Assembly: GCF_023700005.1 (NCBI RefSeq)
Contig: NZ_JAMLJK010000001.1
Location: 124,001-188,000, forward strand
DNA from: Larsenimonas rhizosphaerae
GTDB taxonomy: Bacteria > Pseudomonadota > Gammaproteobacteria > Pseudomonadales > Halomonadaceae
DNA length: 64,000 nucleotides
Direction: 5' to 3'
This document shows positions 735 through 55,600 of the stretch, one piece after another. The notes under the pieces are model-generated. The model was not told the origin of the DNA. It searched no databases and saw nothing but the letters and a program-made list of their open reading frames with translations. How positions within the stretch are numbered: position 1 is the first letter of the stretch; each line of letters begins with the position of its first letter. The translations under genes and the position numbers were made by a program.

Positions 735-1607
735 TTATTTTTCCAGCCAGCGATAAATGCCGGCAATATCTTCCTTGGACAGGCCATTCTCGTCGGCTTC
801 TGTCCACAGGGATTCAATGCGCTCAAGCCCCGGCATCGGTTGATCGCCGGCGGCCTGAAGTGCCAGGCGGGCATCCTTCAGCCCCCATTCCAGCGCCATC
901 TGAGCGTCAAAGTCACCGCTTTTGATCATGTCGAGCTTGGCCTTGACGTAGGGGGCTGCCAGTGGGCCGCCGTCGAGTACGGACCAGAAGTCATCGGTGG
1001 AAAATCCCAGTCTTTCGGCCAGTCGAGCGCTCTCGGCAATGCCCTGCATCATTTCAATCAGCCAGGCATTGACCACCAGTTTCATGCGCGAGCCGGCACC
1101 GGCCTCACCCAGCCAGCGGGCCCCCTTGGAGATGGCGCCAAATACGGCGTCGATGTGGGGTGACCTGTCGCGTTCACCACTGGCCAGTACCAGTACCTGC
1201 GCCTTTTCGGCCGGGGCCTTGGTGCCGGATACCGGGGCATCAATGAAGACAACATCCGGCCGCTGCTGCTGAACGGCGTTCATCAGCGTTTCGGTCGGCT
1301 CAACGCCGAGTGTGCCCATCTGCAGCAGCGTCGCACCCTCCGGCATGGCTTCAAGGGCCCGGCCGCTGTCCAGCAGTACGTCGCGTGTGGTCTCCATGTC
1401 CGGCAGCATGGTCAGTACTACCTGCGCTCCCTTGACCGCTTCGGACGGCGTATCGCACAGGGCGGCCCCCTTCGCTTCCAGATCCTCGCCACGGGCGCGG
1501 GTACGGTTCCAGAGTCGAACGGTCATGTTGCTGGCCAGCAGATTCGCGGCAAAGGCGTGGCCCATGGCGCCCAGGCCCAGTACGGCAATAGTCGGTGTGT
1601 CGGACAT
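735..1607 (-). CDS. NAD(P)-dependent beta-hydroxyacid dehydrogenase (3-hydroxyisobutyrate dehydrogenase family)
   Basis: A 290-residue protein of normal length for the family. The N-terminus has the Rossmann motif GLGAMG (residues 11-16) followed by a strand ending in WNRT, which favours NADPH. Further on are the substrate-binding DAPVSGT segment (about residue 123) and the catalytic-lysine helix GAGSRMKLVVN (about residue 170). Members reduce or oxidise short beta-hydroxyacids such as 3-hydroxyisobutyrate, tartronate semialdehyde or glyoxylate/succinic semialdehyde; the substrate cannot be read from sequence. It is transcribed towards the upstream dihydroorotase gene and away from the sodium:solute symporter, sharing a 216-bp divergent region with it, so a common catabolic role is possible but unproven. 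Confidence 0.85.
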   Translation of the reverse strand: MSDTPTIAVLGLGAMGHAFAANLLASNMTVRLWNRTRARGEDLEAKGAALCDTPSEAVKGAQVVLTMLPDMETTRDVLLDSGRALEAMPEGATLLQMGTLGVEPTETLMNAVQQQRPDVVFIDAPVSGTKAPAEKAQVLVLASGERDRSPHIDAVFGAISKGARWLGEAGAGSRMKLVVNAWLIEMMQGIAESARLAERLGFSTDDFWSVLDGGPLAAPYVKAKLDMIKSGDFDAQMALEWGLKDARLALQAAGDQPMPGLERIESLWTEADENGLSKEDIAGIYRWLEK

Positions 1608-1823
1608 GATGTGCTCGTGATGTTATGAAGGTCCATTGAGCGTACCAGGTGTGAGAGCGGGCTTCCACGTGCAATGTCCTGGCTGGCTGTGCCCGATCGT
1701 TTTTTCCTGCTGACGTCGAATGCTTCGTATATACAGCGCTTTATTAGCTACATTTGAAATCAAGCCTGTTGAGCCCAGGGCCTGGCAGGTTGCCTGAAAC
1801 AATAACAATATCCGGAGGGCAGG

Positions 1824-50396: not shown

Positions 50397-51386
50397 TTAC
50401 TTGTCGGTGAGCCAGCCTTTTTCCTGATAATAACGCTTGGCACCGTCATGCAGCGGGGCAGACAGACCATCGCTGATCATGGTTTTCGGGTCGAGCTTGG
50501 CAAAGGCCGGGTGCAGCTTCTTGAAACGATCGAAATTGTCGAATACAGCCTTGGTGGCTGCGTAGACCGTATCGTCGTCGACCTTGGTGGAGCTGACCAG
50601 CGTGGCACCGACACCGAAGACGGTTACGTCCTTGTCATTGCCCTTATACATGCCACCGGGGATGGTGTAGAAGCTGTAATAGGGTTTTTCATCAACCAGC
50701 TCCTTGATCGCCGGATCATCCAGCGGGATCAGGGTGACGTCCGTGGTGGTCGCGGCTTCCTGGATGGAGCCATTGGGGTGGCCGGCAACAAAGATGAAGG
50801 CATCGATGTTGTTGTCGGCCAGGGCAGAAGCCTGCTCGGCGCTATCCAGCTCGGAGGCGAGGGCAAAGTCGTCCCTGGTCCAGCCCTTGGCTTCCATGAT
50901 CATTTCCATGGTCGCGCGGTTACCGGAGCCCGGGTTACCGATATTGACACGCTTGCCCTTCAAATCATCCAGGGACGTGATGCCGCTGCCGCTGCGCGCG
51001 ACAATAGTGGCCGGTTCACCGTGCAGGGCGAACACGCTACGCAGATCCTCATGTGGTTCACCCTTGAACTGGGCCTCGCCATGATAGGCGTTGTACTGCA
51101 CGTCCGACTGGGCAACGCCCATGTCCAGATCGCCATTTTCAATGCCGTTGACGTTGGCTACCGAGGCACCGGTCGACGGCGCATTACATTTGTAGCCACT
51201 GTCGCCCTGGTTCACGAAACGGCAGATTGACTGGCCTACCACGTAATACACGCCGGTTTGTCCACCGGTGCCGATGGTCATGAACTTGTCGGCTGCCTGA
51301 GCCGGTGCAGTTGTCAGTGCCACCGTGCTCAGCGCCAGTGCAGCGGCCGAGAACAGCGTCTTGAAGGCATGATGTTTTGCAAACAT
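50397..51386 (-). CDS. TAXI family TRAP transporter solute-binding protein
   Basis: 329 residues from the ATG at 51386 (GAGGG upstream), with signal peptide ending TTAPAQA-ADKF. TAXI features: FMTIGTGGQTGVYYVVGQSI, CNAPSTGASVANVNGIENGD, then DMGVAQSD, VNIGNPGSGNRATMEMIMEA and FIFVAGHPNGSIQEAATTTD. It binds the imported solute in the periplasm. Known TAXI ligands include glutamate-like and other carboxylates; this one is unassigned. Confidence 0.93.
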   Translation of the reverse strand: MFAKHHAFKTLFSAAALALSTVALTTAPAQAADKFMTIGTGGQTGVYYVVGQSICRFVNQGDSGYKCNAPSTGASVANVNGIENGDLDMGVAQSDVQYNAYHGEAQFKGEPHEDLRSVFALHGEPATIVARSGSGITSLDDLKGKRVNIGNPGSGNRATMEMIMEAKGWTRDDFALASELDSAEQASALADNNIDAFIFVAGHPNGSIQEAATTTDVTLIPLDDPAIKELVDEKPYYSFYTIPGGMYKGNDKDVTVFGVGATLVSSTKVDDDTVYAATKAVFDNFDRFKKLHPAFAKLDPKTMISDGLSAPLHDGAKRYYQEKGWLTDK

Positions 51387-51602: not shown

Positions 51603-51626
51603 AAAAACACCTGCAGAAGCAGGTGT
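51603..51626 (-). terminator. Terminator of the first micro-peptide gene
   Basis: On the minus strand ACACCTGC pairs with GCAGGTGT (51619-51626 with 51607-51614), four-base loop, followed by TTTTGA. Starts 16 bp after the stop of the 50-residue peptide gene. Its stem resembles that of the terminator at 51961-51986. Confidence 0.85.
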
Positions 51627-51641
51627 ATATTGATTCGCCAC

Positions 51642-51794
51642 TCAGCACATGTTGTGACGCTTGTCGCTGGGCTGGTGGTCGAACGGATGAGCAAACCCGC
51701 CCTGACCCTTCTGATCCGTGCTGCCCGCATAGGCATATGCGGCGGCGCTGGCGGTCAGAAGAATCACGGTAGTCACTGCCATAATACGTCGCAT
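51642..51794 (-). CDS. Small exported peptide ending in Met-Cys, paralogue 1
   Basis: A 50-residue frame with AAGGA upstream of the ATG at 51794. Residues 1-24 form a signal peptide (MRRIMAVTTVILLTASAAAY), cut probably near YAYAG. The mature ~25 residues are polar: STDQKGQGG, then FAHPFDHQPSDKRHNMC, rich in His and Asp with a single terminal Cys. It resembles the peptide at 52019-52180 in length, signal sequence, the GG motif and the final MC. Each gene has its own terminator. No family recognised. Metal binding or a thiol role for the C-terminal Cys is only a thought. Confidence 0.65.
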   Translation of the reverse strand: MRRIMAVTTVILLTASAAAYAYAGSTDQKGQGGFAHPFDHQPSDKRHNMC

Positions 51795-51960
51795 GATGAT
51801 CTATCCTTGGACTTGAATAATAGTTATAGGGTCGCCAAAGCGAACTTTGACGATTAAATCATGCGCGAACTGGTCAGGGATAGTCTGTGCCAATAAGTGC
51901 ACAGGCCGTGAGACGGGACCAATAGCCAGGAACACGTAGCCCGGCTACAGGGGATACATA

Positions 51961-51986
51961 AAAAAACGCCTGCATGGCGCAGGCGT
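51961..51986 (-). terminator. Terminator of the second micro-peptide gene
   Basis: On the minus strand ACGCCTGC pairs with GCAGGCGT (51979-51986 with 51966-51973), five-base loop, followed by a run of T. Located 33 bp after the stop of the 53-residue peptide gene. Confidence 0.85.
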
Positions 51987-52018
51987 AACAGCGTTTGGGC
52001 GGCTGTCGGTTGAACCGA

Positions 52019-52180
52019 TCAGCACATGTCCGAACCACCGGACGAATGACTTTGGTGATGACCACCAAACAACCAGCCCCAGAATCCACCTTCATCACTG
52101 GTCCTGTCGCCCTGACCGGCATAAGCGGCGCTACTGGCGGACATGACAAGTGTCATTACAACTGCTGCGGTAATTTTCAT
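52019..52180 (-). CDS. Small exported peptide ending in Met-Cys, paralogue 2
   Basis: A 53-residue frame from the ATG at 52180 (GGGGAAGCA upstream). Signal peptide MKITAAVVMTLVMSASSAAY, cut probably before AGQ or GQG. The mature part is GQGDRTSDEGGFWGWLFGGH, then HQSHSSGGSDMC: aromatic-glycine core, His/Ser-rich, single C-terminal Cys preceded by Met. It is clearly related in plan to the peptide 225 bp downstream (51642-51794); the DNA at the stop codons is also similar (TCAGCACATGT in both). A possible 27-codon frame precedes it by 16 bases. Unrecognised. Confidence 0.7.
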   Translation of the reverse strand: MKITAAVVMTLVMSASSAAYAGQGDRTSDEGGFWGWLFGGHHQSHSSGGSDMC

Positions 52181-52196
52181 TGCTTCCCCAACCTCA

Positions 52197-52280: not shown

Positions 52281-52426
52281 TGTGAAATTTCCGGTCACGG
52301 CATGTTTTTCACGTAGTTTATAAGTAAGTCTTTGTTTTGATGGGGAAGGGGTCATTGCACGCAAGAATATAGCGTCAAGGACATGGCGTGGATGCACACT
52401 TCGGCACACTGCTAGAGGAGAAAACC

Positions 52427-52999
52427 ATGGAAGGCAGCTGCGTTCGATGCAACTGGCCCGGCAATGATCCACAGATGATTGCCTATCACGACACCGAGTG
52501 GGGGGTGCCGGAATACGACAGCCGCGCCCTGTGGGAAAAACTGATGCTCGATGGCTTTCAGGCGGGGCTGTCCTGGCGAACCATCCTGCACAAGCGGGAG
52601 GCGTTCAGGGAAGCCTTCGCGGGCTTCGAGCCCGCGCGGGTTGCGGACTTTACCGAGGCCGATGTGGAACGGCTGATGGGCAATGCAGGCATTGTACGCT
52701 CACGCAGGAAGATTGAAGGCGTGATAAGAAATGCGCGCGCCTGGCTGGCCATGCATCAGGCCGGTGAACCCTTTGACGAGTTTGTCTGGGCGAGTGTGAA
52801 GCATACCCCGGTGCAGGCAGGTGAGGTGCCGATCCCCACACAGACCGAGACCTCAGTGGCGCTTTCGAAAGCGCTCAGGAAAAGAGGCTTCACCTTTGCA
52901 GGCCCGGTGATTGTGTATGCCTGGATGCAGGCCACGGGCATGATCAATGATCACACCCATGCCTGTTTTCGCCACGCCGAGGTCGCGGCGCTTTCCTGA
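52427..52999 (+). CDS. tag: DNA-3-methyladenine glycosylase I
   Basis: 190 residues from the ATG at 52427 (GAGGAG upstream). Tag signature: CVRCNWPGNDPQMIAYHDTE, then WGVPEYDSRALWEKLMLDGF, then QAGLSWRTILHKREAF, and the C-terminal zinc-site segment NDHTHACFRH, whose His and Cys join the N-terminal Cys and His. It removes 3-methyladenine from alkylated DNA. One base separates its stop from the stop of the convergent exporter gene. Confidence 0.95.
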   Translation: MEGSCVRCNWPGNDPQMIAYHDTEWGVPEYDSRALWEKLMLDGFQAGLSWRTILHKREAFREAFAGFEPARVADFTEADVERLMGNAGIVRSRRKIEGVIRNARAWLAMHQAGEPFDEFVWASVKHTPVQAGEVPIPTQTETSVALSKALRKRGFTFAGPVIVYAWMQATGMINDHTHACFRHAEVAALS

Positions 53000-54573: not shown

Positions 54574-55539
54574 ATGCGTCCATTGGTTGTGTTTTTCCTG
54601 ATCAGCGTAATGGCTGTTCGAGTGCCTTGGCCCATGAATCTGATGGCAGATGAAACCGGTTTGAACTTCGAGGCGCTTTCGCTCGATGATGCCAGGGCAG
54701 TCGAGCTGCCTGCCCTCGAGCGTTATACCGCGCGTGACGGTCGTGCGCTGGGGTATCGGCACTATCCGAGTAATTCGTGTATTGCGCTCGTTCTGGTGCA
54801 TGGCTCAGGTACCGAAAGCCGGTATCTGGCCCCGCTTGCGCGGTCTATCGCCTCCGCCGATGCGGCAACCGTTTATACGCCGGACCTTCGAGGGCATGGC
54901 CCGGCGCCTCATCGTCGCGGTGATGTCGATTACATCGAACAGCCCGGCGATGATCTTGTGGATCTTGTGGCCCATATTCGAGCACGCAGGGACAGTATCG
55001 AGCGTGTGGTACTGGGCGGCCATTCATCCGGGGCCGGGCTGGTGGTGCGCCTTGCTGAGAGGCAGGACATGCCCCCGGTGGACGGGGTTCTATTGCTTGC
55101 GCCCTATCTTGGCCACGATGCGCCGACCACGCGCAGGAACTCGGGAGGCTGGGCCAGTCCGAACCTCTTTAAAATCCTGCCATTGGCATTGATCAATCGA
55201 CTCGGGGTCACGGCCTTTAACGGCGCTCGGGTGCTCGATTTCGCCATGCCGGCGACACACCGTGACGGCTCGGAGACGCTTTCTTATTCCTTCCGCATGA
55301 TGGCCGGACTCAGCCCTACCGATTTCAAGGCGGGCCTCAAGGCGATGAAGGCGCCTCTGTTGCTTCTCGCAGGGTCGGACGATGAAGCCCTCTTTGCCGA
55401 CCGGTTCGAGGCCGTTGTCAGGCCGCTGTCGCCACACATGACGTTACGTATCGTTGAGGGCGTATCTCATCTGGGCATCGTAAGGGACGAGGAGGCAGCG
55501 CGTGCAGTCCGCCAATGGCTCACGTCGCTCGCGCCATGA
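54574..55539 (+). CDS. Alpha/beta hydrolase (serine hydrolase), possibly membrane-anchored
   Basis: 321 residues. Hydrophobic N-terminus (LVVFFLISVMAV) may be a signal anchor; a later ATG would give a soluble form, and no RBS decides. Hydrolase core: LVLVHGSG (oxyanion turn), DLRGHG, nucleophile elbow LGGHSSGAG, acid region LAGSDDEALFAD and catalytic His in EGVSHLGIV. Monoglyceride lipase-like. All triad residues are present. The hexanucleotide repeat begins eight bases after its stop. Confidence 0.83.
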   Translation: MRPLVVFFLISVMAVRVPWPMNLMADETGLNFEALSLDDARAVELPALERYTARDGRALGYRHYPSNSCIALVLVHGSGTESRYLAPLARSIASADAATVYTPDLRGHGPAPHRRGDVDYIEQPGDDLVDLVAHIRARRDSIERVVLGGHSSGAGLVVRLAERQDMPPVDGVLLLAPYLGHDAPTTRRNSGGWASPNLFKILPLALINRLGVTAFNGARVLDFAMPATHRDGSETLSYSFRMMAGLSPTDFKAGLKAMKAPLLLLAGSDDEALFADRFEAVVRPLSPHMTLRIVEGVSHLGIVRDEEAARAVRQWLTSLAP

Positions 55540-55546
55540 CAGCGTT

Positions 55547-55600
<54 letters not shown>

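Follow-up and report, generated by a model that had tools for sequence, protein, structure and literature searches.

Two neighbouring genes of a predicted exported micropeptide family with a single cysteine at or next to the C-terminus

Both W1 and W2 are real genes, each with a terminator of its own and a product that carries an export-type signal peptide, and they probably represent a lineage-restricted family of Sec-exported micropeptides. So far the family appears to be confined to three related halophilic genera, namely the genus of the window (the whole stretch of 64,000 nucleotides analysed here), Phytohalomonas and Kushneria. A gene pair of this kind is easily missed by annotation.

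Genome features

The W1 peptide reads MRRIMAVTTVILLTASAAAYAYAGSTDQKGQGGFAHPFDHQPSDKRHNMC and the W2 peptide MKITAAVVMTLVMSASSAAYAGQGDRTSDEGGFWGWLFGGHHQSHSSGGSDMC. Each begins with a Sec-type signal peptide and has its sole cysteine as the last residue; the features of the locus are listed in Table 1. Re-reading of the sequence confirmed most of what an earlier note had said of the pair, including the coordinates, the 50 and 53 codons, a Shine-Dalgarno sequence for each gene, signal-peptide-like N-termini, the single cysteine at the very end, and a terminator of its own for each gene with near-identical stems. The two genes are indeed neighbours, but the gap between them, given there as 225 bp, measures 224 bp. 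The two hairpins are separate, resemble intrinsic terminators and have similar stems of the form CCTGC..GCAGG. No sigma-70-like promoter passed a simple scan at the W1/W2 locus. The flanking genes encode a glycosylase and the solute-binding protein of a TRAP transporter, which we take to be of the TAXI type; they serve as markers of the locus in the genus and are separate from the peptides.

Table 1 Features of the W1/W2 locus, with positions in the window
Feature	Position	Strand	Basis
W1, gene for a 50-aa peptide with signal peptide, ending ..HNMC before the stop	51642..51794	-	profile match with relatives
W2, gene for a 53-aa peptide with signal peptide, ending ..SDMC before the stop	52019..52180	-	profile match with relatives
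Ribosome-binding site AAGGA of W1	51804..51808	-	read from sequence
Ribosome-binding site GGGGAAG of W2	52183..52189	-	read from sequence
Terminator hairpin of W1 (a matching hairpin also scores on the + strand)	51607..51626	-	fold z -3.72 against shuffles
Terminator hairpin of W2	51966..51986	-	fold z -3.19 against shuffles
Methyladenine glycosylase, flanking gene	52424..52999	+	PF03352; same neighbour in G001 and G002
Solute-binding protein of TRAP transporter, flanking gene	50397..51386	-	PF16868 (NMT1_3); same neighbour in G001 and G002

The window holds two small open reading frames with a signal-like N-terminus and a single cysteine in the last two residues, where 20 first-order Markov sequences have 0.8 on average, and this count taken by itself leaves room for W1 and W2 to be chance reading frames. 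Without the cysteine condition the same filter is not selective (76 frames in the window against 77.8 expected). The sequence ATGTGCTGA occurs five times in the window against 0.84 expected, and the other three of these sites encode no such peptide. The window alone is thus insufficient to exclude chance, which is nevertheless extremely improbable because the genes are conserved, as seen in 20 genes of 11 genomes with conserved ends, in synteny and in dN/dS; for the purH branch described below, the dN/dS values refute it.

Elsewhere in the window, a tandem array of the 6-base unit GCTCTG (positions 55547-55599, 8.8 copies, 97% matches) follows closely on the stop of an alpha/beta-hydrolase-like open reading frame (54574-55539). 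Slippage in this array could act as a gene switch, but none of the frames that run through it is clearly a gene.

Related genes in other genomes

Two other species of the window's genus (genomes G001 and G002) each have a pair of such genes at the corresponding locus, one for 59 aa ending in ..GGDSC and one for 57 aa ending in ..SDSNMC, with a hairpin and a run of T after each. Between these genomes the first gene differs by four synonymous and two non-synonymous changes and the second by five and one, too few to be weighed alone. At locus L004, the peptides to which W1 and W2 lean by sequence (1115-1294 and 1504-1674) are arranged the opposite way with respect to the glycosylase and transporter genes, which hints that the locus may have been rearranged.

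Profile A1 was built from six window-type peptides (W1, W2 and the pairs of G001 and G002) and searched over 250 Halomonadaceae genomes. It recovered a peptide ending in ..GGNGMCS from G010, the Phytohalomonas tamaricis match, and it matched the signal peptide only of products ending in ..SYEPSFSC (G001, G002), ..TAGQICG (G000) and ..VPAAICN (G001, G002; GTG start), at profile positions 4-28, 2-28 and 2-29, respectively. The latter members were picked up by their signal part alone and yet all have a terminal or penultimate cysteine, so the cysteine was not what selected them. Profiles of the ICG type led to orthologues in G010 (..NAGEMCS) and in seven Kushneria genomes (..GSMCS, ..GMCS), comprising K. 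pakistanensis, K. phyllosphaerae, K. indalinina, one uncultured Kushneria and three others with the same genus label; seven is the number of Kushneria genomes in which the gene was seen and implies no fraction of all Kushneria genomes.

Members are defined by a signal peptide of the ..(T/S)AGxAY or SAAYA type together with one cysteine, last or penultimate, a definition that is drawn from the same members and that describes W1, W2 and 18 others in 11 genomes. These 20 genes (18 distinct sequences) are distributed as three in G000, four each in G001 and G002, two in G010 and one in each of the seven Kushneria genomes, and the window-type pair is seen solely in the window's genus. Every member has exactly one cysteine, which is the last residue in eight and the penultimate one in 12. 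Conservation of the C-terminal cysteine in related genomes had been set beforehand as a test of the earlier idea, which survived it. Of the terminal Met-Cys proposed at that time, the cysteine is kept in all 20 members, but the methionine directly precedes it in 13; the other seven have Ser or Ile there.

Histidine is absent from seven of the 20 members, occurs once in eight and three or more times in five. A His-rich mature part, as first described for the window members, is therefore not a family trait, and His-based metal binding was rejected as the family function. We also judge it improbable that the peptides are periplasmic binders of soft metals (copper or silver) that act through the Met-Cys end, helped by His where it is present. 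The methionine of the 13 members and the His-rich window peptides would suit such a role, as would the weak likeness of W2 to PtrA, which we take to be copper-linked. That likeness, to the PtrA N-terminal domain family NF041599, reaches 19.4 bits for W2 and 18.9 bits for the ..SDSNMC peptide against a cut-off of 31, and it covers the first 23-28 residues, that is the signal region, with nothing in the mature part. The members with Ser or Ile before the cysteine, those lacking His, the single cysteine per chain and the fact that no metal gene adjoins the loci examined all speak against metal binding.

The purH branch

The ICG/ICN/MCS branch is found in the order dusB-fis-purH-peptide in six regions from three genera (G000, G002, G010, G016, G117 and G138), and in G001 the peptide gene is likewise downstream of purH. 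Two leftward genes lie between purH and the peptide gene in G010. Pfam confirmed PurH (PF01808) in all six regions and the Dus and Fis domains in G000; the remaining genes of the dusB-fis-purH regions were recognised by eye.

Purifying selection acts on this branch in Kushneria. Values of dN/dS lie between 0.02 and 0.32 in all 21 pairs from seven species, those ratios being rough for some pairs in which dS is about 2 and near saturation. The codons compared were 42 at the N-terminus and the last three, with the variable spacer between FTP and MCS omitted. The earlier note had proposed that the pair is kept under selection and had named dN/dS as a test; this holds for the purH branch, the figure being no measure of W1 and W2 themselves. 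In a DNA alignment, conservation extends to the terminator stem and to an A-rich leader that precedes the ribosome-binding site.

The peptides might instead be secreted to act on other cells, as signals or as antimicrobials; they are small and aromatic-rich with an export signal, and the window's genus has several diverged copies. The purH branch, however, consists of one gene per genome that is inherited vertically and shows low dN/dS, unlike a fast-changing weapon, and no immunity or export gene was recognised beside it. Moreover, W2 gave no match when compared with plasmids, nor did a Kushneria member when compared with phages. We consider a role of this kind quite improbable.

As a separate observation, a stretch near CTTAATCCAAACGGCACAGT is well conserved in seven Kushneria loci (L075-L083). 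It lies downstream of purH, some 100 bases ahead of the peptide gene, and could belong to the promoter region or serve as a site for a regulator.

Searches outside the three genera

With profile A1, no member was recognised beyond the three genera in 250 genomes of the family and 293 of the order, and the same result was obtained with the ICG-type profiles in 201 and 275 genomes of the family. Nor was one recognised beyond these genera with a mixed profile in 390 genomes of the order, where at most 17 candidates were scored per genome, or with a purH-type profile in 274 genomes of the class. Such absence is weak as proof because profile searches easily overlook peptides of this length. Among weaker profile hits with a fetched locus, 81 loci were searched again for reading frames that end in Cys where the profile had matched. 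In this non-exhaustive survey, judged by eye, none was convincing beyond the known members L067 and L073. At L049 a hydrophobic frame carries one cysteine, in the penultimate position, but this frame is antisense to a His-rich, signal-bearing open reading frame. The latter (1254-1656, minus strand) is a small His/Gly/Arg-rich frame with a signal-like N-terminus in another genus of Halomonadaceae, seemingly unrelated to the family.

Two kinds of locus were also examined without a profile. The purH locus was located in 30 of 31 genomes, three of which have members (G000, G001 and G016), the purH-branch gene of G010 lying beyond the flank examined; the 26 other purH loci showed no member, with chance-looking frames at L151, L160 and L162. 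The solute-binding-gene locus was located in 30 of 41 genomes, with members only in three genomes of the window's genus and unrelated-looking frames at L188, L193, L196, L201 and L207.

Pfam, NCBIfam and PHROGs returned nothing above cut-off, where one exists, for the family peptides, in agreement with the earlier remark that no known family is recognised; weak matches, PtrA and ExtJ among them, either involve the signal region or are close to noise. Among openly licensed PMC papers, judged by titles and the beginnings of abstracts, no description of such a peptide family was found.

Relationships among members

The signal peptides of W1 and W2 are alike (z = 5.1 against shuffles). Their mature parts without the terminal MC are no better than shuffles (z = -0.2, 172 of 300 shuffles as good), and with the terminal motif they reach z = 1.6 (29 of 300). 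The likeness of the two genes near their ends is thus weaker than the earlier note had put it. W1 and W2 may be a diverged duplication, as suggested there, with similar signal peptides and mature parts that beyond MC do not rise above shuffles; the view that a tandem duplication is proven was dropped on this ground. By the same measure W2 is closer to a Phytohalomonas peptide than to W1, with z = 4.5 (0 of 300 shuffles as good), or 2.6 (7 of 300) without the terminal motif. Of the G001/G002 pair, the ..GGDSC peptide is the one that W1 leans to (z = 2.6 for the mature part), whereas W2 leans to the ..SDSNMC peptide (z = 8.3 for the signal part), the likeness of mature parts being weak.

Across the branches the signal parts are alike and the mature parts are mostly not above shuffles, while profiles of the purH type and of the window type each give weak hits to the other (E about 0.01-0.08). 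On these comparisons, the two types of member probably, though not demonstrably, descend from a common ancestor. If they were convergent instead, the independent use of a terminal cysteine would be equally interesting.

Insights into function

In the reading that we tentatively prefer, the exported micropeptides would act by their terminal thiol, through dimerisation or through coupling to a partner by a disulfide; we hold this to be quite possible, though short of an even chance. The signal peptide would take the chain to the periplasm, and cleavage, most likely at a site of the A-Y-A or A-G-A type, would leave roughly 16-36 residues. In the mature peptide an aromatic stretch would usually be followed by a variable spacer and then by the single cysteine, as the last or penultimate residue, with the thiol as the working group at the tip of a flexible arm. 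The cysteine may be disulfide-paired in the oxidising periplasm with a second copy, a partner protein or a small thiol, and the aromatic stretch may bind a partner or the membrane. The thiol is proposed as the working group because the members share an export signal and usually some aromatic residues, and the lone cysteine is kept while the spacer drifts; that Cys is conserved across the 20 members and His is not also speaks for it. Dimerisation or partner coupling is favoured because a single exposed periplasmic cysteine is expected to oxidise to an intermolecular disulfide. That one mechanism is common to all branches is an assumption, given that the mature parts are mostly unlike. Selenocysteine at a TGA after the cysteine was considered and rejected, as several homologues end in Cys-Ser-TAA.

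Speaking against action by the thiol, those Kushneria peptides that contain ..TYHYS.. lack an obvious cleavage site. All seven Kushneria members strongly conserve the hydrophobic segment, which is also shared with Phytohalomonas, and its conservation in Kushneria could mean retention in the membrane. Because of this conservation, the main rival to thiol coupling is that the N-terminal helix stays uncleaved and that the products are single-pass inner-membrane microproteins, whose cysteine in the periplasmic tail would touch or tether a subunit of a membrane complex. A predicted model also has one helix (residues 2-40) and a loose end, and with a mean pLDDT of 70 it carries little weight. In most members, however, the hydrophobic stretch is immediately followed by a good A-x-A site, and those of the window type resemble ordinary cleavable signals; we regard an uncleaved membrane microprotein as unlikely, though worth keeping in view.

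Comparison with known systems

Bufferins are short precursors with a Sec signal and functional cysteines, and stand-alone precursor genes are also mentioned (PMC12452194). The same source describes four, six or twelve conserved internal cysteines and a requirement for an MNIO enzyme (PMC12452194). The present family resembles bufferins and MNIO-modified peptides in the short precursor, the Sec signal peptide and the presence of cysteine, and differs in having one terminal cysteine. A signal peptide plus cysteine is the layout of a bufferin precursor, and the products could be precursors of bufferin-like or otherwise enzymatically modified peptides, but several conserved cysteines in the mature part were found in none of the 20 members. 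The MNIO enzyme (PF05114) was detected in none of the 11 member genomes at E <= 0.001, as against two of 14 in the positive control set. Bufferin-type modification was rejected on this result; MNIO-type modification of these peptides is unlikely because no MNIO enzyme was found, and the wider notion of enzymatically modified precursors we rate as very improbable.

C-terminal sorting tags are comparable in that they, too, mark exported proteins with a short conserved motif at the end of the chain. In PEP-CTERM, GlyGly-CTERM and MYXO-CTERM tags the motif is followed by a transmembrane segment and a basic tail, and MYXO-CTERM has an invariant cysteine. The micropeptide chain, in contrast, ends at the cysteine or one residue later, and no C-terminal transmembrane segment with basic residues was found in the family sequences. 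Bacterial lipoproteins likewise combine a signal peptide with one special cysteine; theirs is the first mature residue, in a lipobox at the signal cleavage site. No lipobox cysteine was seen at the cleavage site in the family, in which the special residue is last or last but one.

Conclusions

A bolder possibility, which we regard as a long shot, is that the peptides of this clade of Halomonadaceae (Kushneria, Phytohalomonas and the window's genus) are interchangeable thiol-tipped tags, in which the conserved signal and cysteine would form a frame for delivery and coupling and the variable spacer with its aromatic core would set the target. If true, they would amount to a periplasmic peptide-conjugation or signalling system with coupling by a C-terminal disulfide, for which we know of no described counterpart. 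Bacterial micropeptides of fewer than 60 residues are badly under-annotated. For the present family, selection and synteny make the case that the genes are real, and the lone terminal thiol, kept in all 20 members while the mature part otherwise mostly drifts, offers one chemically testable residue.
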